A stretch of DNA of 64,000 bases from a virus, in the IMG/VR virus record IMGVR_UViG_3300009130_000028, positions 1 through 64,000 of that record; one strand, given 5' to 3'. This document shows positions 7,619 through 44,979 of the stretch, in pieces. Made by a program: the position numbers and the translations under genes. Under the pieces are notes generated by a model. It saw only the letters and a program-made list of their open reading frames with translations, was not told where the DNA came from and made no database searches. Within the stretch, counting starts at the first letter, position 1. Every line of letters starts with the position of its first letter.

Positions 7619-7624
7619 GTGTAT

Positions 7625-8015: not shown

Positions 8016-8016
8016 T

Positions 8017-8535: not shown

Positions 8536-8539
8536 AGTA

Positions 8540-14040: not shown

Positions 14041-14041
14041 T

Positions 14042-14049
14042 TATATTTG
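14042..14049 (+). promoter_or_regulatory. TAnnTTTG promoter-like box before the scaffold/capsid genes
   Basis: TATATTTG matches the Bacteroidota -7 box TAnnTTTG and lies 22 bp before the scaffold ATG. The same octamer precedes the fibre genes at 44,991. No clear -33 TTTG was found, so this is suggestive only. Confidence 0.35.
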
Positions 14050-14070
14050 TATAACTCAAAAATTAATGTT

Positions 14071-15090: not shown

Positions 15091-15112
15091 TAACTTTTAA
15101 TTTTAAAACAAA

Positions 15113-25469: not shown

Positions 25470-26597
25470 ATGGCAGTAACTAGATTTGGACAGCAGGAAA
25501 GTATGTATGACTATGTTGGAAGTCATTATAGTCATAAAAGAAATGTAAAGAAAGCTACAGGCTTTAAGACAAGGTTTGGTCTTATGCTTTCTGGAAGAAA
25601 CAGATATGGTCAAAAGACTGTTGGTGCTCAAATTGGCAAAACATTATTATGGACTGGTGTTGGTATAGGCGCTGGTGTTGCTGGTGCAGCTACTGGTGGT
25701 GTTGCTGGTGCAGCAATAGTCGGTGGTGCAATTGCTCTTTCTTCTGGTACAACGGTAGCTGCTGAAAGGCAGACAGAAAGAACATTTAGAGGCACTGATG
25801 TCCATAAGGAGATTGCTGAGACTAATGTAGGTATGAAGGCTGCTGGGGCTGGTCTTACCACCGCTTTGGCTGCTGCTGGAGGATGGGCAGCTCAAGCAGG
25901 AAAGGGAGCATCTGCAGCAGGAACTACAGCTGAAGGTGTAAAGACAGCAGATGCTACAGGAAAAATTGCATTAAATGCTAATAAATTTCAGAATGTAGAA
26001 TTGGCAAGAACACCAATGAATATATCGGGAACTACACCTATGCAGTTTGGGGATAAGGTAGCGCCATTAAGTAATATTAAAACTGGTGCAAGTATTCCAT
26101 CATCACTAACTACTGCGCAATCTACACCATATTCTCATATGGCATATGAATCAGCTAAGACAGCACCAAAAGGATTGTCTAAGGCTATTTCTACAACTAA
26201 AGAATTTGCAGATAAGCCAGTTTCTACTATATTAGATAAAATAAAAGCAGGAGAGAAAGTTCCTAAAGAAATGGTCAAACAATTAGATAAGTTTGGTAAG
26301 CAAGTGATAAAAAAGGGATATACAAAAGTTGGTCAAAAAGCAGTTGATGCTATTACTTCAGATAATAAGAAATCTATGAAAGAGGCAGAGACCAAAGCAA
26401 AGGAAATAGATAATACTATTGCAGAAGGTGGATACGATATAAAAAGACAGGAGATTTCGGATAATCTTTCTGAAAAACCAACAGGTGTTAGAAATGCTAG
26501 TTATTATGCTAATTTGCAAAGACAGCAATTAAGTATGAGTGTAGCCGACAGAGAAGATTGGCGAAGAAATTTTTTAAATTCAATAGAAACAGTTTAA
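25470..26597 (+). CDS. Ejection (cargo) protein candidate with glycine-zipper membrane segment, 375 aa
   Basis: A basic N-terminus (residues 1-55) is followed by a long Gly/Ala/Val segment at about 57-95 (GVGIGAGVAGAATGGVAGAA) and a second at 120-150, both like membrane-inserting glycine zippers. The C-terminal half is Lys-rich and helical. Position after the nozzle gene fits an internal protein ejected into the cell envelope, comparable in role to T7 gp14. Inference from composition and order. Confidence 0.6.
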   Translation: MAVTRFGQQESMYDYVGSHYSHKRNVKKATGFKTRFGLMLSGRNRYGQKTVGAQIGKTLLWTGVGIGAGVAGAATGGVAGAAIVGGAIALSSGTTVAAERQTERTFRGTDVHKEIAETNVGMKAAGAGLTTALAAAGGWAAQAGKGASAAGTTAEGVKTADATGKIALNANKFQNVELARTPMNISGTTPMQFGDKVAPLSNIKTGASIPSSLTTAQSTPYSHMAYESAKTAPKGLSKAISTTKEFADKPVSTILDKIKAGEKVPKEMVKQLDKFGKQVIKKGYTKVGQKAVDAITSDNKKSMKEAETKAKEIDNTIAEGGYDIKRQEISDNLSEKPTGVRNASYYANLQRQQLSMSVADREDWRRNFLNSIETV

Positions 26598-26606
26598 TAT
26601 AATATT

Positions 26607-29600
26607 ATGGCAGCAAATCCAATAGATTCTGAGCTTTTAGAAGAAGAACTTATAGAGGTAATGAAGGAGGAAGTTACTAATGGTGATTGGGATGCAAATA
26701 TGTTTAAAAAATACGCTCCCTATCTTGCTGATAAAAAGGTAATGACGTTTATGAAGGCTTTAGCAGAAGCCGAGTCAGGTACATTCGAACTAGACCAAAA
26801 ACAAATACCATACTGTCAAGGAGACAGAAGCCTAGACAAGGATAGAGATGCATGTGTCTTAAAGTTTGGAGAGGGTGGTGATAATGGATGGGTCGAATCT
26901 TCTGCTCAAGGATTGTTTCAATTTATAGATGGTACTGCTAAAAATGTACAAAAGAAAACAGGATTTGACCCACGCTCTACGGGCAAAAAATATAGTGCAT
27001 TAGAACAGACATTAGCCGCAATATATTTGATTGATACTAAAACAGGGGCATTAGAAGCAGTATCTTCTGGTAATTATGATTTAGCATCTCGTAAATTAAG
27101 AGGAATATGGGAAGCCCTTCCTAGCAACTACGGTGGAAAAATAGTTGGAAGAAAGGCTATGGGATTACCTAATGAAAAATGGCAAGAACTATTTAAAAAA
27201 CATGGAGGTACAGTAATTAAATATCAAAAGCTTACTGACGAAGAGATGGAGGGTGCTCTTCACGAATATATAAAGAAAAATGACCCTGAAAAATTAGCAG
27301 AATACGAAAGATATCAAGAATTTAAAAACAACATTAACCCTAAAATACAAAAATTTAAAGCAAGTGTAGATAGTATTATATCTGGAGATAACTATACTGT
27401 ATGGTGGGAGAAGAATAAACATAATGGGAAGAGTCTAAAGCAGTGGCAGGATAATGTAAATTATTCAGATTCTCAATTAAAAGAATTAGAAAGATGGAAA
27501 AATGGAAGGGATTTGTATGATAAAGGAGATAGAAGCGCTAATGCTATTCCTCCTTCTGTTGGATTTTCTCTTTATAACAAATCTTTTGGAGAAGGTGGAG
27601 AAAGCACTGATTATGAAGAGGTTAAAAGTCGTGCTGAAAAATTAAAGAGAGAATCACAGGATATATTAATCAAAAACTTTGAGTCTAGAAAAAACTTTTT
27701 GAAGGGGGAGACTATGATAATGTCGGATGAGATACGAAATTATGTATTAGGCGATGATGTTTCTGAACTTCTGGGTTCTGAAGGTGTAACTAAAATTCTT
27801 AACACTACAAGGGATATTCAAAATAATATAAATAGCCTTGGAGACAATATAGGTGATTATGATTCTTGGTATGAAAGAAATAGTGAGATTATTTCCAAGT
27901 TAGAAGCTCAGAAAAAAAAGATAGATGCCCGACCAGAAGATTATGTACCCCCTAAATCGCATACTAGCGTTAAGGGAGGAACAAGTAGTTTGGGCATAGG
28001 AAGCAGTACAACTAAAGATTATACTGCAGCAGAAATTGCTGCTCAAGACTCTAAAATGATAGGAGACTTGATAGGAAGATTAAAGGAGGGTCCAGGTAGC
28101 CTAGAGGATATGGAAATGTCTTTTTCTCTTTTGGAAAAGACAGGTGAAACAGGATGGGGTGGTTTAGAGAGGGGCGAGGTAGATAAAGAAATACTAAAAA
28201 AATACAATATAGATGAGAGCTTATTAGGTTCTGAGATAGATAAGGTATTTACTGATTATTTTAATGACTACAAAGGAGATAAAGAGGAAGCAATAAAAAA
28301 CCTTAAAAATTTAGACCCCACGATACTAGGACTTCCCGAAGGATACAAAACAGTAGAGGCATATGATTTATACTTAAAAGGTATAAGGGAGCAAATAGAC
28401 AAAGAAAATAAAGAGTTATTTGACGAGGAATATGGAGAAAGTTCCTCTGGTAGTAGCGTCTTTGGAGAAAGCAGCAATATAGCAGACGCAGCTAATACGC
28501 CTCCCACTATGACGGAGGATGAGTTTAAGGAATATCTGGAGAAAGTTTCGGGTCAAAGAGAAGAAGCTGGTATTAGCAAGATATATAAGCACATAGGAGA
28601 TGGAAGCCTTGATACTGCTCTGCAATTTGCTGGTATGTTAGGCGCTTATAAGTCTGCCACTGCTCCGCTTCCAAAGCAACAGAAAAGCGAAGATTGGAAA
28701 AACCATATGAGAGAGTTAAGTGATAGACGGCATTTGGGATTAGATGCTGCTACACTTACTTATTATCAAAGAAATGCAGAAAGGGTATATTCTCACGATG
28801 TAGACAATATAGCAAGATTTGGTACTTCAGGTCAGGCTGTGTTAGCATCGTTAGGTAGAGCAGCTAGAGATAAGTACGATGCTCAGCTGAAGATAGCAGC
28901 TTTAGATGAAGAGGCTAAGCAAAAACATTTTACTGCATACGGACAAGGGTTGGCTCAAGATGAGGCTATGACCCAATCATATTGGAAAACAAATGTTTAT
29001 GACCAGGCAGATAGAAAGAGAGAATTGAAGGCTGCAATTATAGGTCAGCTAACTAACAATTTAAGGGAAGACCAGTTATATGCTAGGCAATACGGAGAAG
29101 GTTCATATTATGCAAACCTAATGGATGCTAGATATAAAGATACTAGAGAAAGCACTATTACTAAAAGAGCCAGTGAGCTAAAGCTTAGGGGAGGCACTCT
29201 TCCTGATGGAACTGAGGTAAGCTATACTGATGCTCAGGCATTAAAGATTGCAGAATCAGAAAACCCATATACTCCAGCAAAGCATCCCAAAAGCCTAACG
29301 CAGCAAGTTGGTAGTGCTGTTTTGGGTGGTGCTAAAGGAGTGTCTGCTCTTATAGATAGTGCGGATAGGTATGGCTCAACTCTTGCTAGTGGAATATCTC
29401 AGGGTGTTGCAAATCTTATGGAAAAGATAAATGCCCCAGTTGACAAGGATGATTACTCTTCTTATGACGAAAGCGTAAATAAGTTTAGAAAGAAGCGAAA
29501 AATAAAAGGCTCTGGAGTTGCTTATGATGGTGGAGAAGATGTTGCGTCAATGGGCGGAGATAGAGCTTGGAGCAGCCTTACTTGGAAAGAAAAAAGAGCA

Positions 29601-29624
29601 AGGAAAAGAGAACATAAAATTTAG
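26607..29624 (+). CDS. Ejection protein with N-terminal lytic transglycosylase-like domain, 1005 aa
   Basis: Residues about 40-200 look like a lysozyme-fold transglycosylase: KALAEAESGTF with the likely catalytic Glu56 in E-S-G, then SSAQGLFQFI at 98-107, TLAAIYLID, and GNYDLASRKLRGIWEALPS. The rest is helical and charged, with a Gly-rich linker. Such virion muramidases (T7 gp16-like) open peptidoglycan during DNA entry. It is one of the three cargo-type genes between nozzle and giant protein. A substrate cleft was not checked. Confidence 0.72.
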   Translation: MAANPIDSELLEEELIEVMKEEVTNGDWDANMFKKYAPYLADKKVMTFMKALAEAESGTFELDQKQIPYCQGDRSLDKDRDACVLKFGEGGDNGWVESSAQGLFQFIDGTAKNVQKKTGFDPRSTGKKYSALEQTLAAIYLIDTKTGALEAVSSGNYDLASRKLRGIWEALPSNYGGKIVGRKAMGLPNEKWQELFKKHGGTVIKYQKLTDEEMEGALHEYIKKNDPEKLAEYERYQEFKNNINPKIQKFKASVDSIISGDNYTVWWEKNKHNGKSLKQWQDNVNYSDSQLKELERWKNGRDLYDKGDRSANAIPPSVGFSLYNKSFGEGGESTDYEEVKSRAEKLKRESQDILIKNFESRKNFLKGETMIMSDEIRNYVLGDDVSELLGSEGVTKILNTTRDIQNNINSLGDNIGDYDSWYERNSEIISKLEAQKKKIDARPEDYVPPKSHTSVKGGTSSLGIGSSTTKDYTAAEIAAQDSKMIGDLIGRLKEGPGSLEDMEMSFSLLEKTGETGWGGLERGEVDKEILKKYNIDESLLGSEIDKVFTDYFNDYKGDKEEAIKNLKNLDPTILGLPEGYKTVEAYDLYLKGIREQIDKENKELFDEEYGESSSGSSVFGESSNIADAANTPPTMTEDEFKEYLEKVSGQREEAGISKIYKHIGDGSLDTALQFAGMLGAYKSATAPLPKQQKSEDWKNHMRELSDRRHLGLDAATLTYYQRNAERVYSHDVDNIARFGTSGQAVLASLGRAARDKYDAQLKIAALDEEAKQKHFTAYGQGLAQDEAMTQSYWKTNVYDQADRKRELKAAIIGQLTNNLREDQLYARQYGEGSYYANLMDARYKDTRESTITKRASELKLRGGTLPDGTEVSYTDAQALKIAESENPYTPAKHPKSLTQQVGSAVLGGAKGVSALIDSADRYGSTLASGISQGVANLMEKINAPVDKDDYSSYDESVNKFRKKRKIKGSGVAYDGGEDVASMGGDRAWSSLTWKEKRARKREHKI

Positions 29625-29641
29625 ATAATAAAAGCATAGTT

Positions 29642-31534
29642 ATGCCATTAGATTATACACTTTGGAATGTAATAAAGCAGGGAAGCCTTTATGACAAGAA
29701 AGCACAGGCTGCTAAAGACAACATGCTTTATCAGGAGAGGTTGTTTGAGCGTGCTGCAAAGCAAGAGGCTGACCAACTTAAGATGCAAGAAGCATCAGAA
29801 CTCTTTATGGATGAGGTTCAAAAAGGAATTGGTCAATTTCTTCCTCAAGATGTTGATAGGGTTAAAGGGATAGAAAAGAATGCGAGAATGAGTGTTTATG
29901 ATGCTGTAAAAGAATCTGGTGGTGATTTCAAGAGATTTTTTATGATGGGTGGTCATAGGGTATTAAGAGAATATAAAAACTCCATATTACAATCTAAAGA
30001 GGTTTCTAGTGCCGTTAAGAATAAGGGAGTGTATGACCAAATGACAAAGGATATGTCAGAAGGGAAATACTTAAAAAAAGTTGTTGTTGGTAGCGGAAAG
30101 TCAAGACAAGCGATGGATGCAGAAGAGATGCTTCAATTATTTAATGCTGGTAAGATAAAAAACTTATCATATAATGGCTCTGAGAAGCCCGTAGAAATAG
30201 ACTTTACAAAGTTTCAGAAGAACTATAAAGGAAGTAGCCCTTATCAGTCTACCCCTGTTACATATCAAGACCTTGTTTATGCTATGCAGCTTATGGGTCA
30301 ATCACCAGAGGTTGCTCAGAAGGTAGCAAAGAATTATGTTATAGGACAAAATGAAAATGGTGAGCCTATTACCACTGGATGGTGGGGTATTAAAGATATG
30401 GATTATGGAAATCTATCTAAATTATGGGGATTAAAGAATGGGTATTACAATGGCAAAGGAGGTTCAGGCAAGTTTATCAAGACAGCACAGGCTGTAGCTC
30501 CTATATTGCAATCAATCCCTGGCTTGATAAAAGACCAGCAGGAGTGGATGAAGAGTGCAGACTGGGTTAGAGCAGATGGAACTATTGAAAATAAAGCTAT
30601 TGCTAATTATGATGGAGATGCCCAAACATTTGGAGCCATACTAAATGGGATGGGAATAGCTGTTGATGCAGATGGAAGAATAAATTCAGATAAATTTGAA
30701 TGGGAAAATTTTGTGAATTTAGCAAATGGTCATCAGTTTAGTCTCAAGCCTCATATGTATGATTTTTCTAGTATTACCCCAGGAAGATTGCAGGTTGTTG
30801 TAGACAAAAAAGACCCAAGCAAGACAAACATGTATCTTGAGGCATATGTTAATGTCGAAGAAGAAATATTGGAAGACGTTCTTGACTGGGAAGATTTATG
30901 GTTTAACGCAGTAGGAAAGGCAGAGACCAAGGGTCAGGAAGGGCAGAGTATGTATACTAATGAAAATTGGAAGAGGAAGGGAAGCAATTATAAAGACCTT
31001 TCTTGGGAAGAAGAAGAAAGGCTGGGATATAGTTCGGATATGAGGCAACTTCGCATAGGAATACCATTGCCCACCGATGAGCTATCTATAGCTAGGATTA
31101 ATGAAGCAATAGGATATACCCAAGGTAATGTTATGGGTGGTCCTAGATGGGAAGATTGGGTAAGTCAGCAGATGCAAAGACCTACTGGTACTACCGCTCC
31201 AGAAAACATACAGGGTAATGTGGGTTATGGTAATGTTCCTCAAGGGGTGTTTGCACAAACAGCATGGAATCAAAGACAAGGTGGTGGCGGTGCAGATTTT
31301 AGTGGATTTATGAATATGCCACCTAGTGAACAGCAAAAAATAGCTGAAGATTTGATGTCAGTAAAGGTTAATCAGCCAAATCAAGAGCAGTCATTAGGTC
31401 AGGCTGCTACTACGAGCATGATGTCAGGAGGTCCAAACTTACCAGCTATCTTTCAGCAAGCAAACAATGCTGGATTGACTCCTGAGCAATATATTAAAAT
31501 ATTAAATATGATGGCTGCAGGACAGGCTAAATAA
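29642..31534 (+). CDS. Ejection (cargo) protein candidate, 630 aa
   Basis: The N-terminal 150 residues are helical and charged (YDKKAQAAKDNMLYQERLFE), as in internal virion proteins. A mixed middle with Trp-rich segments follows (GWWGIKDMDYGNLSKLWGLK), then a Gln/Gly/Pro-rich C-terminus (TTAPENIQGNVGYGNVPQGV). No enzyme motif was seen. Position between the transglycosylase-bearing protein and the giant protein suggests it is packaged and ejected. Confidence 0.6.
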   Translation: MPLDYTLWNVIKQGSLYDKKAQAAKDNMLYQERLFERAAKQEADQLKMQEASELFMDEVQKGIGQFLPQDVDRVKGIEKNARMSVYDAVKESGGDFKRFFMMGGHRVLREYKNSILQSKEVSSAVKNKGVYDQMTKDMSEGKYLKKVVVGSGKSRQAMDAEEMLQLFNAGKIKNLSYNGSEKPVEIDFTKFQKNYKGSSPYQSTPVTYQDLVYAMQLMGQSPEVAQKVAKNYVIGQNENGEPITTGWWGIKDMDYGNLSKLWGLKNGYYNGKGGSGKFIKTAQAVAPILQSIPGLIKDQQEWMKSADWVRADGTIENKAIANYDGDAQTFGAILNGMGIAVDADGRINSDKFEWENFVNLANGHQFSLKPHMYDFSSITPGRLQVVVDKKDPSKTNMYLEAYVNVEEEILEDVLDWEDLWFNAVGKAETKGQEGQSMYTNENWKRKGSNYKDLSWEEEERLGYSSDMRQLRIGIPLPTDELSIARINEAIGYTQGNVMGGPRWEDWVSQQMQRPTGTTAPENIQGNVGYGNVPQGVFAQTAWNQRQGGGGADFSGFMNMPPSEQQKIAEDLMSVKVNQPNQEQSLGQAATTSMMSGGPNLPAIFQQANNAGLTPEQYIKILNMMAAGQAK

Positions 31535-31539
31535 ATGTT

Positions 31540-34500
31540 ATGGCAGAAGAGGATGTTAAAAACATAAGGTCTATTTATGACGAGAACGTCGGAAGCTCTC
31601 CTAGTATTGCATCTGAAGGCTCTGGTGTAACTCCCGACCTTGTGTCTGGTGGAGACACTGAGTTTAGCCAAGCCGATATAGATGCTGCAAAAAAAATATT
31701 AGCAGATAACAATACATCAGCAGAGTCAGTTCTAAATACTATGGGTCAACAATCTTTTAGGATTGGAGAGGCTCCATTAGGTGTTACTATGGCTATAGAA
31801 CAGCCAGAGCTTACTAGACCATACTTTTCATATAAGGGTAGCGTTGGAGAGGATTTGGCTGCTTCTATTTGGAATGGAGGCGTGGTAAGGACTACTGCTG
31901 GGATTAAAATGTTTGTTCCTTCTGTGGCAAAAGCCTTTGGCGCTGGAGAGTGGGCTGATGACTGGATAAATGAGGCGGTAGAATGGAATAGGCATAGCCA
32001 GGCATCAATATCTGATGCTGGTAAGGAAGATTTCTTTGATACGTTTACTGCTAATGCTTTTGCAGCAGGATTTGGTCAGGGGCTAGGTTCTGTCTTGCCT
32101 ATTTTTGCAGCAGCAGGGCTTACAGCAGCTACAGGTGGTGTTGCAGGGGTTGTTGGGGGTTTTGGTTATAGTTCAGCAGCAGCAGCAACAGGAGCAACGG
32201 CATGGGGAATGGGTTCTGCGGCAGCAACAGCAGCGGCAGGAACTACAGCTACAGTTACAGCAGCCTCTTTAAATATGCTTCCAGGTCTTATGGAAGAAGG
32301 ATTGCAAAATGGCTTAACACATCAAGAAGCGTCTAGGGTGGCTTTAACTATAGCTCCTATTGTTGGGGCTATGGAAAAAGTAGGTCTTGATTATGTTGTG
32401 AAGGCAGGAACAAAATCTCTTAGTGGCTCTATAGCTAGAGAAGCATACAAGAAATCATTAAACAAGATTGGTAAAGAAGGTCTTACTGGAAATCAGTTTG
32501 GAAGATTTGCTACTAATATGTTTCAAGAGATAAGTGAAGCATATGCCAAAAAAGGAGGTGGCTTTAAGGCTGCATCCCAAGTGATGAAGGAAGAACTTAA
32601 GATGTATGGTAAAGCTGTAGGCTTTTCTGCATTAGAAGGTTCTGGAATAGAATTCTTACAGGAAACATCTCAGTCTTTGGTAGAGACTGTAGGCAAGCAG
32701 ATGTATGATATGGCTTTTGCTGATGCAGAGGCTACTAAAGGAAAAGGAAAGTTTGGTGCTGATATTAAATCAAAGGAAACTTGGACTAGAGCATTAAAAG
32801 AAGGATTTTATGGCGGTCTTGTTGGTGCATCTATTGCTGGTGCAGGAAGAGCAGGAACGGGATGGCAAAGACAAACTATACTAGATGCTTTAGATAGCGC
32901 AAAGAGAGAAGGTAGAGGGAGCTTTGATAGAGTTCTTAAAAACATACATAGGTCTGTTGCTGAGTCAGATAATGATACTGCTGTCAAGAATAGTCTTAAT
33001 GACATGGTTGATGAGATGGCAGAGATGGTTGGTAATGCTGAATTACAAACTGTTACTGACAATAAAGCCAGAATGCAGATACTTCAATTTGGATTATTGT
33101 CTAAAAACCTTTCAGAAAAGATAGATGATATAGCCATAAAGAATGTTGTTCCTGAAGCCATATCTGATATTAATAAGCTAAAAGTCACCCGACTTGCTGA
33201 AAGGCAAGAAGGAATCAAAAAGGCAGTAGCAGAAACATATGAGACAGGGATACCATATGATGAAAAGCAAGATAAGTATAATATTTTTGGAGACCAAGAA
33301 GCTAGGGATGTGGCAGCGGCAGAAAAAATTATTGCCGATTCCGATTTAACGGAAGATGAAGATAAAAGAATACTAGAGTTCCAAGAGAGAACGGGTATTA
33401 CTCCAGAATACCTGGATGAATATATTGATGTTCCAAAGCCTGTAGAGACAACTATCGCTAGAGTTGAGAATGGTATTCCTACAGATATTAATGCAGTGCA
33501 AAATGCATCTAATTATTTATATGGTGCAGTTAAAAGAATTCAGGCTGCAAGGAAGAGTGATACTAGAACCTTGACAACTGAGCAATTAGACTCAATGGAA
33601 GAACAGTTGGGTGAACAAATAACTAAACTTGAAAATTATGTCACAGAATTCAAAACAGGAGAACAAAAGGTATCTAAGCCTAAGGAACAGGCTGAGATTA
33701 GCAAGCCTCCCCAAAAAGGAAAGGGAAGAGCTGACCAACGAACTGCAACAGAACTGGGCGAACAAGACCAAGCCCCAAACTGGAAATCTTTAATTGAGGA
33801 ATCAGTATCAGAGAAAGAGCTTAATGCGGTACAAGACCAAATAGCAAAAGCAAGAGAGCAGGGAGACATTTCTCTTGATGATGATATAGAGTATACGGAT
33901 GCCATTGCTATTAAAAGAAAATCTTTTCCTCCTTCTCCAGAAGCTCAACCAGAAGCCGAACCAGAGATAGAGCAAGAAGAAGTATTAGATAAGGGAATTA
34001 GAAAAGCTTTTAAGGATGTTGGCAAGGATGCAGATGAAAGCTTAATTGGCAAAATAAAGAACTTTATTAAGGGTAAGCTTGTTGGAAAAAAAGCCAAGAT
34101 AAACACAGATAAGGATGGTGAAGCAGAAATAGTAAAAGATAAAGGAGATAAGGTATTGTTAGCTGATGGTAGAACGGTTAACAAAACTAGCTTAGAACCA
34201 GCAGGAAGAAAGAAAGGTAGACCTTATGAGCCTACTAAAGAAGATGTGGAGGAAATAGATAAACCAAAACAACCAACAGCTCCTGCAAAGGAAGTTACTG
34301 ATACTGACTTAGATGAATTTTTTGCTGAAAAGGCTAAAGATTACAAAGATGCTACTTCTATATTAAGAGACGTAAAAGAGCATTTCAAGAAAGAAGAAAT
34401 TACTGATGCTGACCTAGATAAGTTCTTTAAAGAAAAAGCTAAAGACTATAAAGATGCTACTTCTGTATTAAAGAATGTAAAAGAACATTTGAAAAAAGAA

Positions 34501-37500
34501 AAAGAAGTTACTGATGCTGATTTAGATAAGTTCTTTGATGAGAAAGCCAAGGATTACAAAGATGCTTCCTCTATACTAAAAGATGTAAAAGAACACTTCA
34601 GGAAAGAAAAAGAGATTACTGATGCTGATTTAGATGAATTTTTTGCGGAGAAAGCCAAGGATTATAAAGATGCTACTTCTGCAATAAAAGATGTAAAAGA
34701 GCATTTTAGGAAAGAAAAAGAAAAACAGGAAGAGAAAGGAACTGTATCTGAAACTCAAGATATATTTGATGAATTATCTAAAGAATATGACAAAACTATA
34801 GATGAGGTTAACAAAAGGTCAGATAAAAATGGAGATGGTCAATTAGAGATAAAATTTGATTCAAGAACTGGATATTCAGAATCAATATCCTCTAATCCTG
34901 AGTTTTATCATAAGATGGTATCACACCTAAATAAGCTATTTCCAAAGCTTACAATTAGTCATTTTTCTAAAATTATAGGTGAGAGAGGGGTAGAAATACT
35001 AGGCGATATCAAAGGCTTTGATGTTAGGATAAGTGAAAATAAAGCCACACAAGACACAGTAGTTCATGAGATAGGACATAAATATGTTCCATTCATAGCT
35101 GGTGAAAAACTATATCACGAAGGTCTTAACTTAATAAAAGATACGGATTACTATAAGGATGCACAAGAGTTATATCCAGATAAGACATCTGCAGAGCAAG
35201 CGGAAGAGGCTCTTATGAATATGGTTGCTACTACAACTGTAGAGGAATTAAAAGTTAAACTTGGAGAAGGCAAGGTTAATCTTTTGCGAAAGGCTCTTCA
35301 ATGGTTAAAAAGATATTGGAATAAGATTAGAAATACTTTTTCTAAAACCAGGAATATAGATACAATTGTTAAGGAAATATCTTTAGATATTGCTCTTAGA
35401 GACACTCCTGTTGATGTCGATGGAGTTTTAATAAAAAACAATAGAGAATCTAGGCTTAAAGGTGTAGAAGAAGAAGCAGGAAAAAAGCTTGGTGCTTTAA
35501 GGTCGGGATACATGAATGCTGCAATTTCTTTAATTGGGTCAAATAAGAAACTTACAAGAGAGCAGATTAAAAGAGAACTTATACTAAACATGCTGTCTTC
35601 TTGGGTTAATGGTTATCGAGCTAATGTTAAATCCAAAACTCAAGAGCAGAAGTTTACGGAAGCCAAAAATTTTATTACAAAGAACAATTCGATTTTAGAA
35701 AAATATACTGATAATCTGTATTCAAAAATAGGAATGAATATATCTCCAGATGATTTGATTGCCCATTTAAGAGATATGGATACTGCTTCTCAGAATAGTT
35801 CACTAGATTATGACAATACTCTTGAGGACACTCAGTACTTTTTAAGTGAAAGCTCAGAGATAGACCCTAAGCTGGCTTCTGTTTTAAGTCTGTTTACGGA
35901 TAAGGATGGAAATACAATACCTCCCCATAGAACATATAATATTGCCATATATAATAATATGAAGTCTAAGTCTCCTTCTGATTGGATGAGTAATCTTAGA
36001 AAGTTCATAAAGAAAGAAGGTTCTTTTGACAAGGGGAGTGACCATGCCTATGCTACAAACATATTCTCCATATTAAACTCTATGAGCAATACAAGGAGAA
36101 CGGAGATTATAAGGGGTCTTTTTTCATTAAGGTCTAACCCATCAATTTGGATTGAACAGTCATTCAATCCATCTGAGGGCAGTATTGCTTTGCATGATAG
36201 AAGTACAAGAAATCCTGTAAATAAGACAAGGATAAAAAAAGCTATAGTTAGGCGCTCTAGACAAAAGGTAAGAGATGCAATAATATCCGCCATGTCAACC
36301 ACATCGAAGACGTCAAGTGATATTATCAAGGAAAGAATAAAAAAGATATCAGAGATAGAATCATTGTCAAGGGAACTTAAGGCAAAAAATCTTTCTAGTG
36401 TAAAAAGATTTGAGATGCTAAATAAGCTGCAATCTTTAACAAAAATACTTTCTGGATATAATATAAGATATGAGTGGTTTAGCGGTTCAATAGATTCCGC
36501 TACTGCTGCACTTCTTGAGAAGCCCCTTTACTTAAAAGGCAATAAAAAATATTTGAATTTTGTTGATGCTCTTGCTAATCAGGAAAGGACATTTTGGAGA
36601 CTATATGATGCAAAACAAAAAAATGAAGTCATAGATTTAAACAAGATATTAGATAATTATGCTTCAGATACAGACAGACTTTCACAAGCTCTTTTTGGTC
36701 CTAACCCTAGCCAATCTGAAATAAAATTATATAGTGATATCGATAAGGCTTCTAAAAGATTAGACGCTTCGATACATGAAGCATCTGGAAATATAGCATC
36801 TTCCTCTTCTTCCAGTACAACAGGACCAGATGCAATGGGAAGACAAAATCCAAACCATAGAGTAGGTGGGTTCCTTCATGATATAGCAAGGAAAGTAAAT
36901 ATATCTACGAAATATAATTCTGGACTTAAAAATAATCCAGTATTTAATTTGGATACAAATATCCTTAAGGAAAATGCTGTAAAAGCAGGAAATAAATTAT
37001 TAAGTCAAGATTCGCCAGCAAGAGCACTTAATAAAACTTTTTCTTCCATAAGGGAAGACATTGTTTCGCTATGGAAAAGCAATGAAGGGCTTGTAAATAC
37101 CGTTGCTATAGACAATGCTTTTGTGTCAAGACAAGGAACCAAAGATTATTCTATTCAAGAGCAAAAAGATTATGATAGCTTTACTACTGCATTATCAGGG
37201 TTCTATCAGTTTATAAGCAATCCTTCAAGTAAAAATTATTATCAGTCTGCAGGAATTCTGTCCTCTAGAGAGCATAACTTCTTAATTAAGATGCCAAAAA
37301 TAGAGAATAAGGATTATAGAACAGAAGCAGGGAAAAAGTTTACAAGGCATCAAGTTATTTTAGCTGGTATAGAACTAAGCTTAACTCCAGAGCAGAGGAA
37401 AAATCTTAATGAAGTTGTTCCAACTATAAAGAAAGCTGAAAGCGATATTAGGTGGTTTATGAACAAGTATTATAAATATACAAAAGACAACAACATTAAA

Positions 37501-40500
37501 AGTATTAAAGGGATAAAGGATGCCGATATTGAAAATAGTATTAGGGAATATGTTTATAATGATGCTATTAACAGATGGGTTATTTCTAATCTTATTGTCG
37601 GAGACCTAACTAAGTTTTCAGAATCTGGAAAAGGTGTTGCGGAAATACTTAAAAGACAAGGAGGAACCGTCTCTCCTAGAGAAGAGGTAGGTCTTGGAAA
37701 ACCTCTTAATGTTGTTGTTCTTGAAGACTTCTACTTAACTAAGGATGGAGAGATATATCAGGGAGAACAAAGGTCTAAAGATGATACAAATGTATCTGAT
37801 TCTCAGACATATGAAAATGATTACATTTCTTCAAAAATAAGAGAGACAGCACTAAAAGATATGGGATACACCCATAAGGTTATCTACAATAATGTTACTG
37901 GGGAGGGAGAGTTTACTTATATCAAACAATCATCCAGGTCTTTTGAAAATCTAGATTCTGATGCTGTGAGAAATATAAATGATTCTGTTTCTGCAAAGAT
38001 TGCTAAGTTTCTTAAAAAGAAAAATAAATTTGGCGAACCTATATTTGGAAATAAGCCAGTACAAGTTGTTTTTAAAAGCGCCTTAAAATCTCCGCTAAAA
38101 AAAGGATTGAAAACCTATATGGTAGATGAGCTTTCTGAGAAAAGCGATATATCAGAGGGAGACTTGGTTCTTGAGGATTCTGGATTTGGGGTTCAGCTTA
38201 ACTTAAGTAAGGATGCTACTTCCCCAGACGCTACAATAGCATTATCAACACAAATGTCTAAAGGGCTTACTGCTTATCATCCCGAATCTAAAGAGATGAA
38301 CAGAAAATGGGAGTCTCTGGTAGCTAAGAGGATGAAGGAGCAAATGAAGGATAGCTTATCCAAGGGAGACCGTATTGCTAATCCAAAAGATGCTCTTAAT
38401 AAAATTCAAGATTCCACTGGGGCTAATTTTGGAACATTAGGTTCTAGAATAGCATCGTATCTGAAAGAAAAGTTTAACAATGGACTGTTTACTAATGAAT
38501 CAAGGCTAGGTCATTATGATTTATCTGAAAAGATGGAGAATTTTATGGCTTCACTTTATAATAATAATGTTCTTAAGATAAGAGTTAGGGGTGCAGAACT
38601 TGTTCAGGAAGCTGATTTGTCAGGAGAGCTAAAAGACCAGTTTGACGAGGTATCTGTTGAAGAGATTAATAAGTTTGGTTTAAAGAAAGAGCATTATTAT
38701 GAGGATAATGGAAAGAATATCTTAAAGGTATCGTTAGCAAGAGTTCCCCAGGGATTTGCCAGAAAAGGAGATAGGCTTGTTGGATGGAGGATTCCTGATT
38801 CTGGACCTGTCACAGAAAGTGCAGCTATAGTTGTTGGGTATACACCTAAAGATAGCAGTTCTGTTCAGTTAGGTGCAAAATGGATAAGAAGGTCTGATTC
38901 AGATTTTGATGGAGACCAGTTTTTTGCATGGAAGGATACTAAGCAGAAGAAAAGGGCAACAGAGTCAGAGATGTTTAATTTTGCTTTTGACATGTTCTCC
39001 CATCCAAATAGAAGGGGCGCTGTCGAGAAAGATTTAGATGTAGCGAGTATAGGCAAAAAGGGAGGAACATTAGACGGTATCTACAAAAAGCTAGGTAAAA
39101 AAAGAGAAGGCATTGGAGATGTGTCTACCTTAAAGGGGTTTAGTGAAATGAAGTCTAGGATAAAGGATGCTACACATATGATTGACTATTTTGCTGTAAC
39201 TACTAAAATGCTTAATGTATTTGAGTTAAATGATATGTCTTTAGCTAAGCCTATCTCTATTTTTGGGAAAAATAAGTCTAAACTTACTAATGAAAATCTT
39301 AATGATGCAGCAAGGGCTTTGCAGTTAATGATAGATAATCCAAATCATCTTATTGCCCATGAGACAGGGATAACAAGCAAGAATGCAAATGTGGCTTCTG
39401 TTTTCTTGATGTCTGGATTCACTTTAGACGAGATGATGCATTTTATGCTAACTGACCCCGTAATAGAACTGACTAAGAGGTTAGGTGATGTGAATTATTC
39501 CGATAAATCTTCTAGCACAATAATTGCCGAGATGAAAGAAGAGTTTAAAGACGAGATGACAAAGGTAAATATTATGGATGGAACACAGAAATCGTGGGAA
39601 TCTATATTAAACGAATATAGCAATGCTTTAAATGTTTCTTACAATCTTAAGAATGCAAGGACTATTGTTCAGATGGACAAGAATATGCCCAAAAACAGAA
39701 CTGAAGTAGATAATATGGTGAAATCTTTTGAGGGTATTAAAAATGATAGAATTGTCAAACATGGTAATCTTCAGGATAGTCCTCTTGTTAAGGAGTATAA
39801 AACCCTATTAGGTATGTATATGAACGACCTTAATAGCACTTTTTCCTCCCTATCTGAACCAAAAGTTATGGTAGCTGATGGTCCTTCTAGGTTAAGTCTG
39901 GACTCTAGCTTAAAGGCAGGAACAGATAAGATATCAAAAAAGGCAGACATATCTAAGATTATAGATAGAAACAAAACTATTGCATTGGCTAGAAAAATAT
40001 TTTTGAATAAAAAATATGAATCTGCAGAAGATGTTAAAAATGATTTAAAGAATGCTGTTGAACAAATTTCATTAGCGAAAAGCGTGAATTCTGATAATAG
40101 GATATATAACTATCTTGATATAGACACTGATAGCATGACAATATCTCCATCTGTTAATCAAAGCATTAAAGATATTGATATGGACCAAGAAGAGACTCTT
40201 GATGCTTCTAAGATAGACGAGCTATTTTCTGAGCTTAGTACACAAGAGCAAGAGAATTTAATTAAATATTCTGTTTTAAAAGAAGGATTTGTTAGTCGTA
40301 GAAATGGGATTACTTCATTTTTAGGTGATTCTGTATTTGATAAATACTTTTCTAAGTTAGCAGACAAGGATTATTTAAGTTCAGAAGCAGATGGTGTTTA
40401 TGATGATATTGCTGTTATGATGAATTCCAATCTATATGAGCTTCCTTCAGATACAAGGGGATTATATGGAAGAGATAAAGAAGGCATTGTTGTTGGAGAT

Positions 40501-43500
40501 ATTCTAAAGATAGATATAGCTAGCGAGTCTGATACCCCTCCTATGAAGTATTTTAAAATGAGGGCAAACAATGGAGATGTTTATGTTTACAAAGCAGTTG
40601 AGGGAAGAGTAAAGTCTTTTAAGGGAAAGAAGAACATTCCATCATATACACTATATCCTATAGCCAATATATCAAATCAGAGCATAAATATTATGCCTGG
40701 AACTAGTCTAGATTATTACTCAGCAAATATATCAGATGCTAAAAATATAGGAATTACTGTTCCAGAATTATCTGTAAAAGAATCTATAGATGAGCTAATA
40801 CCTGAAAGTGTTGCGGTTAGTGAAAATATGAATGAGAAAAGAAAGATATTATATCTTCTTAACAATGTAAGCAAAAAAGACACTACAAGCAAGGACAAGC
40901 CAGAAGAGGGAGGAACTCCTATAGATGCTAGTTCAGGTTTTGAATTTCAAAAAACCGACGAATCGTCTACTGTATCTCATAGAAAGATACGCTCAACTAT
41001 GCATAGGTTAGCTTCTAAGCATGGCATTCAATATGAAATAATTAACGACCCTTCTCTTAAGGGGGTTGCAGGATTTTATAATAGAGCAACAGGAACTGCA
41101 ACAATTAATCTTGCCTACGTAAAAGAAGATACTCCATTTCACGAAATATCTCATCCATTTATTAGTGCTATAAAAGAAAGCAATCCTAAGCTATACAAGT
41201 CACTAGCAAGTGAAATTAAGAACACTCCCACTGGAAAAGCCACTTTAGACAGAGTCCTTAAAAATAATCCCGAATTAAGCAAGGATGAAGACAGAGCCAC
41301 CGAAGAAGCTATTGTAGAGCTTCTAGGGAGGCTTTCTACAATTTCCGACACTGGACTACTAAATCAGCTTAGAAGGCTCTTAAAATCAATCGCAAGGGCT
41401 ATCAAGGCATTATTCACTGGAAAGATGTCAGCCAAACTTCCTGGGGAGATTAATCCAAATATGACTATAGCAGCTTTATCGGAAGCTATTGTTGATGGAG
41501 ATATAACTCTTGATAAGGAGATGGATGTCAAATCTAAAAACTTCATAAGAAAAAGAATTGATGCAGTAAACAGGATACTTACTAATAATTATCAGATGTA
41601 TCAGATAACACAAATACTGAATCCTGTTCAGAAAGAAGTGAGAAAGAATATAAGCGATATTGGGTTTATGACCAATGAAGAGTTTGCTGTTGTTTCAGAA
41701 AATCATTTAATGGATGGGTCTTATATCAATAAGTTTAGGATTCCAAAAGAGATGGAAGATAAATGGTTGGATAAGGTAAAAGAAAAATATCCTAATGCAG
41801 AAGTGTCTCAAAAAGAGATATCTGAATATCCAGGCTATAAGAAGTATCTTGTAGAACTTAATAATGGAGAGTTTATATCTGTTTATAAGCTTTCTAATGA
41901 CTCTGCAATAAATGAAGATATAACGAATACATCTAATTTGTATTTTTCTAAAGATGGTGGAACGCCTACTGGTCCAGAAATGATAATAGATGAAAATGTT
42001 TTTGCTGGAGTTCCTCTTGATAAAAATTCAGTAACAACAAAAGATAGGGCTACTCTAAAGCCAGCAATTCCTATTCTTCAGGAATTTTTTAATGCAATTA
42101 AAGATGCTCCGTTTTTGAATGAGATAAGAAATCAAAACCTATCTCTTGAAGCTAAGTCTACTGCCTTTTTAAATAAGATTGTTGGAACTAAGCAGGGAGA
42201 GAAGGAGGGGAAAAACGCATTTGATATGTTTGTTAAGAACTTAACTGATAGATATCAAAAAGCAACAAAATCTAATCTTCCAGATGAGATTAATGTAATC
42301 TCTGTTGGAAAGTATTCGCAAATACATGGAATACCTGATGTGCATAAGAGGATTATAATGGAACTTATGTTAACCAAAGGTGAATTAGATGGAGTTAGCG
42401 TGAGAGACAAGAGAGACATGTTTGTTAGTATGTTTAAAGGTAAGATTCCAAACTTAACTACGGAACAGGCTAATGAGGCAATTGATATTTACGAATCACT
42501 GTATGATGCCGCTATTGTTTTGGAATATCTTAATAATACCTCTGTTAGAGAAGATGTTAATGCTGATGGAGTGCCTGGCATTAAGCAAGGGTATTTTATA
42601 TCTAGCGATGAGGGAAAACCTTCATATTATAGGGTAGACAACATATTGAGGGAGGACACATCTAATAAGATTGGAAAAACGAAAAGAACTAGGGATGCAT
42701 ATCTTTCTAAAAGTAAATGGATGAGGTTCTTTAAGACCCTTATAGATATCCCTTCTAAGACATTTGATATCCATGGCAAAAAAGTATCTCTTAACTATAA
42801 GTACAATATGCTTACTCCGCAAACATTTGCTAAGGTTATATTTGGATTAGACAAAGGCATATTCAATTCGGTTCTCTATGATTCTCCAAATAAAGCAGAA
42901 GAGAATACCATTTTGTTTAATGAGGGGATGGTTAGGGCTATGAAAAAGTCTTTATCTGATGATGTCAAGATACAGGAAAAAAAGTATAGCGAACTTGATA
43001 AGTTCTTTTCTGAAGACTCAGATAAAAAGGATGCAGACAAAAAAAGATATAATTTAAAAGATATAGGTATTACGGGAGACATAGGAGAAAGCTCTTTGAC
43101 TATTAACCAAATTCTTACAATATATAAGTATTTTAAGCAGCCAGATGTTATGGAGAGGGCTTTTTATGGAGACAGAAATACTCAAAAAATATATTTTGGA
43201 GACACTGATTCTTCTGCAGATGTAAGAGGCGGTAAAGTGATAAACAAAAAAACAGGCAAGATTATCTCTAGGTCTCAGTTTGATATAACTCAGCAACAAG
43301 CTATTGACTTGGTGGAAAGCATAGATAACTATCAAAATCTTACAACTCTTAAAAAGGAGCTTCAAAACGTATATGAAATGTCAGATGCTATGGATGCAGC
43401 GTATAGTCATGCTCATCCTATGCTTAGCAAAACACACGAAAGAAGATTTGGAATTCCTTTGAAAAAATTAGATTACTATTTTCCATTAAGTTTTGGTAGC

Positions 43501-44979
43501 AATGACCAGATATCAGGTATTATGGCAGATAATAAATCTTCTTTTGTAACTGACTTTAGGTCTTCTAAAAATAGGTCGGTTAGCGCAATGGTAGCTGGTC
43601 TTCGTCTTGATGATGCGTCTACTATATTCCAGAGGTCTAAAAACCAATCTGCAGCATATTATGCATATGCAAACGATATAGACAATTTAGAAAAGCTTAT
43701 GACTCTTTTGAAGGTTACGGATATCGAAGGATATAACAAAGAAGAAAAAGCTAATATAATTGGATATATTAAAGAGTATAAAGACTATTTGAATAACTAT
43801 AGGGCTACAGAGGGTCTTACTGGAGACTTTACGAATAGAGCGGTTCAGGCTGGTCTTAATAACTTTCAGTTAGCTGTTTTGGGTGCAAACCCATTTGTTG
43901 CATTAAAACAAATTTCTTCATCTTTAGTTACTGCACATAAATTTGGAATGGGAAATGCAACTCTTTATGCTCAGGGAGGAAAATATCCTAGAGCTGCTAT
44001 GGGTATATTGACATCCAGTTATGGTAAAGCAAAGTTTAATTGGAATGACCCAAAGCTTGGAGAATTAAACATGGAGCATCCTATTGTAAAAGAAGCAATG
44101 GATTTGTCTCCTATGATTAGACAAAGGCTTGAAGGATACATAAACAGAGACCTTGGAGAATATATTTCCTCTAAAAAGAAGGGGCTTGGGTTAAAACCAA
44201 AGAAAACAGATTTAGGACCATTTGGGAAATGGGATTTTACAAAATCTATGGAGTGGATTAAAATAAACGACACCTTTACTGTCATGTCTATTTTCTTGCA
44301 AGTAAAAGACGAGGTTGCTGAATCCCATCCAAATCTTACTGGAGCAGAAAGAAATGCTGTTATAAAGAAAAGGTTTGAAGAGGTGGTTAATGATACACAA
44401 CCTACATTTGGTCAGGTAAATAGAACTAATTTCGGAAGAACTCAAAATCCCTGGATACGTATATTTACAATGTTTACCTCTCAAAGAGCCAAAAATGCAA
44501 ATATGATGGTTGATACTATGAACGAGATGGCATTAGACCCAAATAGCGATTCTAAGGCTAAGTTAATGGCTACCCTTGTTTCTGTTGGTTTGATGAATGC
44601 ATTGGCTATAACAAGCATAGATGTTTTAAGAAATGTTCTTTACGGCAACTATGGAGAAGATGATGAAGATGCGGTAATGAAAGATATACTTGGTCTTTCA
44701 CTTAGCTCTTTTGTTACTAATTTTTATTTTGGAAGCTTAACGACTCCTACGTTTAATTATCTTATGGAAAAGCCTTATGGTCAAGAACTTACTCATCCTT
44801 TATTTCAAACAGGCAGTCAGGCACTTAGGGGGCTTGGTCAGGTTGCAGGCGGAAAGCCAGCTGATGGTTTATATAATATGACCTCCGCTGCATCTAAATT
44901 TATTGGCGCTCCACAAACACCATTAACTATTTTAAATAAAATGCGTAAGGGGGTAGTAGCCAAAATGGAGGAAGATTAA
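31540..44979 (+). CDS. Giant polyvalent virion protein with RNA polymerase DFDGD motif and two HExxH domains, 4479 aa
   Basis: Domains in order: a Gly/Ala-rich hydrophobic region at about 172-250; four 35-36-residue repeats at 918-1060; an HExxH metallopeptidase-like domain (H1176, E1177, H1180); a polymerase-like core with STQMSKG (2236-2242), WRIP (2416-2419) and the triad D2455-F-D2457-G-D2459; a second HExxH (H3201, E3202, H3205); and a C-terminal part (about 4108-4400) of the kind seen in large polyvalent proteins. DxDGD is the Mg-binding signature of double-psi-barrel RNA polymerases and of crAss-like virion polymerases. It probably acts after injection to transcribe early genes. Processing into fragments is likely but unseen. 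Confidence 0.75.
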   Translation: MAEEDVKNIRSIYDENVGSSPSIASEGSGVTPDLVSGGDTEFSQADIDAAKKILADNNTSAESVLNTMGQQSFRIGEAPLGVTMAIEQPELTRPYFSYKGSVGEDLAASIWNGGVVRTTAGIKMFVPSVAKAFGAGEWADDWINEAVEWNRHSQASISDAGKEDFFDTFTANAFAAGFGQGLGSVLPIFAAAGLTAATGGVAGVVGGFGYSSAAAATGATAWGMGSAAATAAAGTTATVTAASLNMLPGLMEEGLQNGLTHQEASRVALTIAPIVGAMEKVGLDYVVKAGTKSLSGSIAREAYKKSLNKIGKEGLTGNQFGRFATNMFQEISEAYAKKGGGFKAASQVMKEELKMYGKAVGFSALEGSGIEFLQETSQSLVETVGKQMYDMAFADAEATKGKGKFGADIKSKETWTRALKEGFYGGLVGASIAGAGRAGTGWQRQTILDALDSAKREGRGSFDRVLKNIHRSVAESDNDTAVKNSLNDMVDEMAEMVGNAELQTVTDNKARMQILQFGLLSKNLSEKIDDIAIKNVVPEAISDINKLKVTRLAERQEGIKKAVAETYETGIPYDEKQDKYNIFGDQEARDVAAAEKIIADSDLTEDEDKRILEFQERTGITPEYLDEYIDVPKPVETTIARVENGIPTDINAVQNASNYLYGAVKRIQAARKSDTRTLTTEQLDSMEEQLGEQITKLENYVTEFKTGEQKVSKPKEQAEISKPPQKGKGRADQRTATELGEQDQAPNWKSLIEESVSEKELNAVQDQIAKAREQGDISLDDDIEYTDAIAIKRKSFPPSPEAQPEAEPEIEQEEVLDKGIRKAFKDVGKDADESLIGKIKNFIKGKLVGKKAKINTDKDGEAEIVKDKGDKVLLADGRTVNKTSLEPAGRKKGRPYEPTKEDVEEIDKPKQPTAPAKEVTDTDLDEFFAEKAKDYKDATSILRDVKEHFKKEEITDADLDKFFKEKAKDYKDATSVLKNVKEHLKKEKEVTDADLDKFFDEKAKDYKDASSILKDVKEHFRKEKEITDADLDEFFAEKAKDYKDATSAIKDVKEHFRKEKEKQEEKGTVSETQDIFDELSKEYDKTIDEVNKRSDKNGDGQLEIKFDSRTGYSESISSNPEFYHKMVSHLNKLFPKLTISHFSKIIGERGVEILGDIKGFDVRISENKATQDTVVHEIGHKYVPFIAGEKLYHEGLNLIKDTDYYKDAQELYPDKTSAEQAEEALMNMVATTTVEELKVKLGEGKVNLLRKALQWLKRYWNKIRNTFSKTRNIDTIVKEISLDIALRDTPVDVDGVLIKNNRESRLKGVEEEAGKKLGALRSGYMNAAISLIGSNKKLTREQIKRELILNMLSSWVNGYRANVKSKTQEQKFTEAKNFITKNNSILEKYTDNLYSKIGMNISPDDLIAHLRDMDTASQNSSLDYDNTLEDTQYFLSESSEIDPKLASVLSLFTDKDGNTIPPHRTYNIAIYNNMKSKSPSDWMSNLRKFIKKEGSFDKGSDHAYATNIFSILNSMSNTRRTEIIRGLFSLRSNPSIWIEQSFNPSEGSIALHDRSTRNPVNKTRIKKAIVRRSRQKVRDAIISAMSTTSKTSSDIIKERIKKISEIESLSRELKAKNLSSVKRFEMLNKLQSLTKILSGYNIRYEWFSGSIDSATAALLEKPLYLKGNKKYLNFVDALANQERTFWRLYDAKQKNEVIDLNKILDNYASDTDRLSQALFGPNPSQSEIKLYSDIDKASKRLDASIHEASGNIASSSSSSTTGPDAMGRQNPNHRVGGFLHDIARKVNISTKYNSGLKNNPVFNLDTNILKENAVKAGNKLLSQDSPARALNKTFSSIREDIVSLWKSNEGLVNTVAIDNAFVSRQGTKDYSIQEQKDYDSFTTALSGFYQFISNPSSKNYYQSAGILSSREHNFLIKMPKIENKDYRTEAGKKFTRHQVILAGIELSLTPEQRKNLNEVVPTIKKAESDIRWFMNKYYKYTKDNNIKSIKGIKDADIENSIREYVYNDAINRWVISNLIVGDLTKFSESGKGVAEILKRQGGTVSPREEVGLGKPLNVVVLEDFYLTKDGEIYQGEQRSKDDTNVSDSQTYENDYISSKIRETALKDMGYTHKVIYNNVTGEGEFTYIKQSSRSFENLDSDAVRNINDSVSAKIAKFLKKKNKFGEPIFGNKPVQVVFKSALKSPLKKGLKTYMVDELSEKSDISEGDLVLEDSGFGVQLNLSKDATSPDATIALSTQMSKGLTAYHPESKEMNRKWESLVAKRMKEQMKDSLSKGDRIANPKDALNKIQDSTGANFGTLGSRIASYLKEKFNNGLFTNESRLGHYDLSEKMENFMASLYNNNVLKIRVRGAELVQEADLSGELKDQFDEVSVEEINKFGLKKEHYYEDNGKNILKVSLARVPQGFARKGDRLVGWRIPDSGPVTESAAIVVGYTPKDSSSVQLGAKWIRRSDSDFDGDQFFAWKDTKQKKRATESEMFNFAFDMFSHPNRRGAVEKDLDVASIGKKGGTLDGIYKKLGKKREGIGDVSTLKGFSEMKSRIKDATHMIDYFAVTTKMLNVFELNDMSLAKPISIFGKNKSKLTNENLNDAARALQLMIDNPNHLIAHETGITSKNANVASVFLMSGFTLDEMMHFMLTDPVIELTKRLGDVNYSDKSSSTIIAEMKEEFKDEMTKVNIMDGTQKSWESILNEYSNALNVSYNLKNARTIVQMDKNMPKNRTEVDNMVKSFEGIKNDRIVKHGNLQDSPLVKEYKTLLGMYMNDLNSTFSSLSEPKVMVADGPSRLSLDSSLKAGTDKISKKADISKIIDRNKTIALARKIFLNKKYESAEDVKNDLKNAVEQISLAKSVNSDNRIYNYLDIDTDSMTISPSVNQSIKDIDMDQEETLDASKIDELFSELSTQEQENLIKYSVLKEGFVSRRNGITSFLGDSVFDKYFSKLADKDYLSSEADGVYDDIAVMMNSNLYELPSDTRGLYGRDKEGIVVGDILKIDIASESDTPPMKYFKMRANNGDVYVYKAVEGRVKSFKGKKNIPSYTLYPIANISNQSINIMPGTSLDYYSANISDAKNIGITVPELSVKESIDELIPESVAVSENMNEKRKILYLLNNVSKKDTTSKDKPEEGGTPIDASSGFEFQKTDESSTVSHRKIRSTMHRLASKHGIQYEIINDPSLKGVAGFYNRATGTATINLAYVKEDTPFHEISHPFISAIKESNPKLYKSLASEIKNTPTGKATLDRVLKNNPELSKDEDRATEEAIVELLGRLSTISDTGLLNQLRRLLKSIARAIKALFTGKMSAKLPGEINPNMTIAALSEAIVDGDITLDKEMDVKSKNFIRKRIDAVNRILTNNYQMYQITQILNPVQKEVRKNISDIGFMTNEEFAVVSENHLMDGSYINKFRIPKEMEDKWLDKVKEKYPNAEVSQKEISEYPGYKKYLVELNNGEFISVYKLSNDSAINEDITNTSNLYFSKDGGTPTGPEMIIDENVFAGVPLDKNSVTTKDRATLKPAIPILQEFFNAIKDAPFLNEIRNQNLSLEAKSTAFLNKIVGTKQGEKEGKNAFDMFVKNLTDRYQKATKSNLPDEINVISVGKYSQIHGIPDVHKRIIMELMLTKGELDGVSVRDKRDMFVSMFKGKIPNLTTEQANEAIDIYESLYDAAIVLEYLNNTSVREDVNADGVPGIKQGYFISSDEGKPSYYRVDNILREDTSNKIGKTKRTRDAYLSKSKWMRFFKTLIDIPSKTFDIHGKKVSLNYKYNMLTPQTFAKVIFGLDKGIFNSVLYDSPNKAEENTILFNEGMVRAMKKSLSDDVKIQEKKYSELDKFFSEDSDKKDADKKRYNLKDIGITGDIGESSLTINQILTIYKYFKQPDVMERAFYGDRNTQKIYFGDTDSSADVRGGKVINKKTGKIISRSQFDITQQQAIDLVESIDNYQNLTTLKKELQNVYEMSDAMDAAYSHAHPMLSKTHERRFGIPLKKLDYYFPLSFGSNDQISGIMADNKSSFVTDFRSSKNRSVSAMVAGLRLDDASTIFQRSKNQSAAYYAYANDIDNLEKLMTLLKVTDIEGYNKEEKANIIGYIKEYKDYLNNYRATEGLTGDFTNRAVQAGLNNFQLAVLGANPFVALKQISSSLVTAHKFGMGNATLYAQGGKYPRAAMGILTSSYGKAKFNWNDPKLGELNMEHPIVKEAMDLSPMIRQRLEGYINRDLGEYISSKKKGLGLKPKKTDLGPFGKWDFTKSMEWIKINDTFTVMSIFLQVKDEVAESHPNLTGAERNAVIKKRFEEVVNDTQPTFGQVNRTNFGRTQNPWIRIFTMFTSQRAKNANMMVDTMNEMALDPNSDSKAKLMATLVSVGLMNALAITSIDVLRNVLYGNYGEDDEDAVMKDILGLSLSSFVTNFYFGSLTTPTFNYLMEKPYGQELTHPLFQTGSQALRGLGQVAGGKPADGLYNMTSAASKFIGAPQTPLTILNKMRKGVVAKMEED
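34291..34719 (+). repeat. Four tandem coding repeats of 105-108 bp in the giant gene
   Basis: Units start at 34291, 34396, 34504 and 34612. Each encodes about 36 residues with the pattern TDxDLDxFFxEKAKDYKDA, then TSxLKDVKEHF and a Lys-rich linker. The copies differ mostly by synonymous or conservative changes, so they are old enough to have drifted at the DNA level but kept the protein sequence. Confidence 0.9.

Follow-up and report, generated by a model that had tools for sequence, protein, structure and literature searches.

Crassviruses must pass polymerase amounting to megadaltons through a tail less than 50 Å across, and their RNA polymerase (RNAP) block also carries zincins. How the first is done and what the second do are questions that the locus described here poses within one gene: what is a single chain that carries a polymerase motif together with two metallopeptidase motifs? 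In the window, the 64,000-nucleotide stretch that was analysed (positions 1 to 64,000 of IMG/VR record IMGVR_UViG_3300009130_000028), 4,479 codons free of internal stops run on the plus strand from 31540 to 44979. The translation holds HEIGH at residue 1176, RIP at 2417, DFDGD at 2455-2459 and HEISH at 3201, exactly as an earlier note, made from the sequence alone, had read them in one frame, and the composition of the protein leads one to expect 0.04 HExxH and 0.11 DxDGD by chance over its 4,479 aa. Searches of the whole giant protein and its relatives against Pfam, PHROGs and PDB sequences returned nothing significant; cytochrome b5, CPSase and poly-A polymerase matches were weak and were set aside as noise.

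Contig scans with the polymerase core recovered two relatives, G006 and L001, and no others. G006 (IMGVR_UViG_3300008261_000191, positions 4154-16075, L033) encodes 3,973 aa colinear with the giant protein, with 32% identity over residues 74-765 and 28% over 1868-4473, and carries HEFSH, DNDGD and HEFAH at the corresponding positions. The second relative, L001 (3,878 aa), keeps RIP and DFDGD and has no HExxH and no homology to either zincin; a degenerate zincin retained in L001 was considered and rejected (hhalign at most 2.6%). The motifs are thus backed by homology, since G006 keeps both HExxH motifs and DNDGD in alignment and L001 keeps DFDGD. It is extremely improbable that the long frame is an assembly artefact fusing separate genes: near-identical contigs do stop short of the giant gene and no further contig of this phage spans it, but G006, which comes from a different sample, shows this order in one open frame at 28-32% identity and L001 is likewise long, so that a chimeric assembly is excluded by an independent contig encoding a full-length colinear relative.

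The giant gene occupies the position of the crassvirus virion RNAP (vRNAP) block. Upstream of it lie a muzzle/stabilization protein of 1,515 aa (20920-25467, plus strand; phrog_28748; BLASTP to crAss001 gp44, 4e-11, and to phi14:2 gp082, 1e-13) and then, up to the giant gene, three predicted cargo/ejection proteins of 375, 1005 and 630 aa (25470-31534, plus strand), placed as are crAss001 gp45-46. The 1005- and 630-aa proteins are conserved next to the giant gene of both relatives, and the order muzzle, cargo, giant gene parallels that of crAss001 (muzzle, gp45-46, gp47), phi14:2 and cr55_1.

Polymerase core, zincin-like domains and flanking modules

By profile homology, residues ~1990-2900 (37507-40239, plus strand) are a predicted Crassvirales-type vRNAP core. 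A profile built from the three clade members (window protein, G006 and L001) was compared with one of ten crassvirus-type RNAPs, nine from Crassvirales and one from Flavobacterium phage Fpv2 (outside the order per NCBI), and the two matched over 626 columns, covering residues ~2000-2900, with an hhalign probability of 99.1% (E 1e-18). Because each hhalign E-value covers one comparison, we relied on probabilities and controls: the motif block alone gave 97% and the ~500 residues downstream of it alone gave 96%, compared with less than 1% for swapped-block controls and 0.1-0.7% for polymerase-profile controls. Pairwise BLASTP also matched the RNAPs of cr85_1 (6e-6), cr11_1, crAss001, crAss002 and p-crAss, always across DFDGD, and tblastn against phage records gave the 'putative RNA polymerase' of cr85_1 as its only match. 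The polymerase that the earlier note had proposed from its motifs is therefore backed by profile homology to crAss-like vRNAPs.

Within the core, DFDGD (38902-38916, plus strand), the predicted Mg-binding catalytic triad, aligned with DFDVD or DFDID of five RNAPs (DFDVD in crAss001 and cr85_1, DFDID in phi14:2 gp66), and its counterparts in the relatives are DFDGD (L001) and DNDGD (G006). The earlier note had named phi14:2 gp66, with YonO, for comparison; this Cellulophaga phage protein (GenBank gp077, PDB 6vr4) is one of the ten RNAPs in the core profile, with DFDID lying on DFDGD. Crassvirus-type vRNAPs carry an R-I/V-P element about 36-40 residues ahead of DxDxD, and both relatives, like most of the crassvirus RNAPs examined, have RIP or RVP at a spacing similar to that of RIP 2417. 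A putative first double-psi-barrel region with Lys2183 (FKSALKSP...GFGVQ; 38047-38214, plus strand) was aligned in the full-core profile alignment; on its own, the upstream block holding this supposed barrel gave 48%. AlphaFold2 modelling of residues 1860-2960 from the three-sequence alignment reached a pLDDT of 34, too poor to search, and the profile of the three cores found no RNAP among PDB sequences.

On either side of the core, both HExxH sites belong to predicted zincin-like domains of the gluzincin type. Zincin-like domain 1 (34867-35409, plus strand), with HEIGH at 35065-35079 and a conserved EE downstream, matched the zincins of crAss001 gp47, cr85_1, cr108_1, cr10_1, cr7_1 and cr55_1, which sit upstream of RNAP in those crassviruses, with hhalign probabilities of 95.7-96.2%, compared with 0.6-0.8% for control HExxH proteins. 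Zincin-like domain 2 (40957-41469, plus strand), with HEISH at 41140-41154, matched domain 1 at 96.4%, crassvirus zincins upstream of RNAP at 58-66% and the downstream zincins of other crassviruses at 9%; its closest matches by sequence were in Tenacibaculum phage Gundel_1 gp074 and cyanophage Lbo-JY46. Two unrelated HExxH control stretches gave 4% or less against either zincin. Of the two metallopeptidase-like domains in the earlier note, then, both stand as related to one another, and kinship with crassvirus zincins is clear for the first and less so for the second. HExxH and an E..EE/EA element are invariant in both zincins over four sequences, the glutamate ligand being assigned from its position. 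The model of zincin 2 had a mean pLDDT of 52, with 74-91 for the helices around HExxH, and its top PDB matches, none significant (E > 0.2), included the minigluzincins selecase, abylysin and jannalysin; a SprT-like match of G006 stood at 0.11. Among viral proteins the zincin 2 model matched giant phage proteins with E down to 9e-7, including entries named 'large polyvalent protein associated domain'.

The N-terminal module (aa 60-800; 31717-33939, plus strand) is supported by identity to G006 and by the homology of residues 173-429 to the N-terminal end of gp070 in Suoliviridae phage cr55_1 (E 6e-11; hhalign 94.5-97%). The hydrophobic Gly/Ala segment noted earlier near the N-terminus is real and spans residues 184-206 (KD 1.64). 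At the opposite end, the C-terminal module (aa 3330-4479; 41527-44976, plus strand) contains a second hydrophobic stretch at 4340-4363 and is 29% identical to G006. The C-terminus matched an unannotated gut phage ORF (MT837155, tblastn 2e-4) and Gundel_1 gp074 (hhalign 32%), both weakly, which lends weak support to its description in the earlier note as a polyvalent-protein C-terminus; a scan of viral contigs with this region found no relative. Neither residues 1340-1990 nor 3330-4479 were homologous to the crassvirus vRNAP-block proteins tested. In the linker (aa 920-1062; 34287-34723, plus strand), TRF detected four tandem charged repeats of 108 bp (36 aa; TDADLDKFF.EKAKDYKDATS...), which lie just ahead of zincin 1 in a stretch mostly gapped in the G006 alignment.

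Comparison with known phage proteins

Size alone does not set the giant protein apart. Known crAss-like virion polymerases had been put at around 2,200 aa in the earlier note, a view refuted by annotated Crassvirales RNAP chains of 4,070-5,443 aa, and crassvirus RNAP chains of up to ~6,000 aa are on record (PMC10136315, review). Nor is the joining of RNAP to one zincin in a single chain without precedent, as cr10_1, cr55_1 and cr7_1, all Suoliviridae, have it: cr10_1 gp32 holds both in one chain of 4,460 aa, cr7_1 gp32 in 5,443 aa with an HExxH in the next protein, gp33, and cr55_1 gp070 in 4,551 aa with an HExxH at residue 517 of the next protein, gp071. The cr7_1 frame holds in-frame stops, as expected with stop reassignment, a known trait of the crassvirus group (PMC7886860). 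These Suoliviridae giants resemble the window protein in the zincin upstream of RNAP, the RIP...DFDxD core, the size and the place behind muzzle and cargo genes, and cr55_1 additionally in its homologous N-terminal module. They differ in the placement of the second HExxH, which is in the following gene (cr55_1 gp071, cr7_1 gp33) and not in the same chain, in having no counterpart of the C-terminal module and in a middle region that could not be aligned.

In other crassviruses the same functions are distributed over neighbouring proteins. Phage phi14:2 has three separate proteins, gp078, gp077 and gp076, of 1,797, 2,180 and 1,421 aa, which are annotated as structural from MS/MS, and gp076, encoded just after the RNAP gp077, has an HExxH at residue 245. 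Phage crAss001 has the same functions and gene block, and its gp47 zincin (HExxH at 2157) is homologous to zincin 1, but it places this single zincin (gp47) and RNAP (gp50, with gp49) on separate proteins. Similarly, p-crAssphage has an 'RNAP associated protein/zincin protease fusion' and an 'RNAP catalytic subunit/RNAP subunit fusion', again separate proteins with a single zincin.

Giant zincin-bearing chains also occur without a detected polymerase. Gundel_1 gp074 (Pachyviridae, 2,482 aa, annotated structural) matched the zincin with hhalign probabilities of 95-97% and the C-terminal region weakly, but has no DxDxD of the searched pattern and no match to the polymerase core. A 2,748-aa protein of cyanophage Lbo-JY46 (L046, 5665-13911) has two HExxH motifs, of which the one at 1177 matched zincin 2 at 95-96%; a polymerase was not detectable in this protein. 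Further away lies gp96 of Thermus phage P23-45, a tape measure protein of 5,002 aa (PMC10770324). By description its giant chain resembles the window protein in joining a DFDGD polymerase to a metallopeptidase and to transmembrane segments, and differs in belonging to a long-tailed phage and in having the polymerase at its N-terminus. Combinations of this kind therefore arise outside crassviruses as well (PMC10770324).

Taken against these proteins, the length, the linear order and the fusion of RNAP with a zincin were already known, from cr10_1, cr7_1, cr55_1, phi14:2 and crAss001. As judged from the alignments, three features are new: the polymerase and both predicted zincins stand in one chain; zincin 2 resembles zincin 1 more than it does those that other crassviruses encode downstream of RNAP; and the C-terminal module is absent from the crassviruses tested and weakly like other giant phage proteins. 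The giant protein is an unusual all-in-one form of a set that its relatives spread, nearly complete, over two or three neighbouring proteins.

Proposed function and possible roles of the zincins

The giant protein is very likely a vRNAP delivered by injection and set within an ejection protein of polyvalent type. Its predicted modules are, in order, an N-terminal ejection module, zincin 1, the RNA polymerase core with two barrels, zincin 2 and a C-terminal module of polyvalent type. On the side of sequence this is supported by coding integrity, homology of the core, of zincin 1 and more weakly of zincin 2, homology of the N-terminal module to Suoliviridae, and position in the virion block. In crAss001, gp47, gp49 and gp50 were found in the virion by mass spectrometry and are thought to exit partly unfolded (PMC10172136), and the phi14:2 vRNAP transcribes early genes (summarised in PMC10136315 and PMC7886860). 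By analogy with crAss001 and phi14:2, the giant protein would be packed in the capsid as cargo, pass the tail partly unfolded and refold inside the host, where the polymerase would transcribe early genes independently of the host polymerase. With less confidence, the zincins may work during infection or assembly, by releasing the polymerase from its flanks or by trimming envelope or host proteins, and the hydrophobic stretches 184-206 and 4340-4363 might, more tentatively still, contact the envelope.

What the zincins would act on can be read in several ways. A role against host or envelope proteins at entry, as in other giant ejection or polyvalent proteins, with the polymerase merely sharing the chain, is plausible, if short of an even chance. 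Gundel_1 gp074 and, beside a second HExxH, the Lbo-JY46 protein have this type of zincin and no detectable polymerase, and the viral proteins matched by the zincin 2 model are giant phage proteins, among them 'large polyvalent protein associated domain' entries; set against this, no substrate is known, and such a role is compatible with self-processing, the two not being exclusive.

Self-processing itself, in which cuts at the module borders would give an N-terminal module, an RNAP and a C-terminal module matching the separate genes of phi14:2, appears rather doubtful. Both zincins flank the polymerase module at points that correspond to gene boundaries in other crassviruses, and G006 keeps both HExxH motifs and the downstream Glu-rich helix, but L001 has a polymerase without zincin homology, crassviruses whose proteins are already split still have a zincin, and no cleavage site or product is known. 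With its polymerase and no zincin, L001 shows that a polymerase of this clade need not be accompanied by zincins. The fullest form of the idea, a self-processing polyprotein whose two active zincins release the RNA polymerase from the N- and C-terminal ejection modules during entry, is improbable; if true, it would mean that what is a three-gene vRNAP block in other crassviruses is here delivered as one unit with fixed stoichiometry.

A purely structural or binding role, with the zincin domains lacking catalysis, is likewise unlikely. In its favour, L001 has lost them and no crassvirus zincin has a known activity; against it, G006 retains HExxH and the downstream glutamate at 29-43% identity, suggesting that the metal site is under selection.

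Joining nearly all parts in one natural chain fixes their order and stoichiometry, suggests joint action, and makes zincin function testable, as the chain is either cut at two predictable borders or not. It also ties crassvirus polymerases to a broader group of giant phage proteins with zincins, such as those of Gundel_1 and Lbo-JY46. Most elements are already on record, but the architecture offers a clean natural test case.

Lineage and other genes of the phage

Genes for TerL, portal, a scaffold-like protein and the major capsid protein occupy 9917-16483 (plus strand), and TerL, portal and capsid matched crass-type families (phrog_6681, 1e-83; phrog_6547, 1e-102; phrog_11589, 1e-47). TerL is ~27% identical to Crassvirales, its best matches being Crassvirales and mostly Suoliviridae. 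A TerL tree groups the window with two related contigs in a 100/100 clade, on a branch of 2.25, apart from Steigviridae and Suoliviridae and within no existing Crassvirales family, the exact placement being unsure on so long a branch. On this phylogeny the phage apparently represents a deep, new family-level crAss-like lineage. Its host, judged by analogy to crassviruses, is probably a Bacteroidota. Crassvirales genomes are expected at ~83-105 kb; the source record is 65,440 bp long, with no terminal repeat detected, and is possibly a fragment of the genome. Contigs from two other metagenomes (L006, L004 and L012) carry a TerL 100% identical to that of the window, one of them also the muzzle protein, and the phage or a very close relative therefore recurs between samples.

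Several further genes were noted in the window. A very acidic low-complexity protein (14047-15090) lies between portal and capsid protein, a likely scaffold position. The 1005-aa cargo protein (26607-29624) has a lysozyme-type match (phrog_17230) and, at residues 367-500, a caspase-like match below threshold (2.3e-3). A 696-aa protein (50883-52973) with three laminin-G/concanavalin-type domains (3e-65) is probably a virion decoration or adhesion protein. On the minus strand, a putative amidoligase (Amidoligase_2, 1.9e-11) and its neighbour, which begins MCIIIIKK and looks by eye like a class II glutamine amidotransferase, form a pair (62029-63321 and 61107-62027) that could modify a peptide or cell-wall target.
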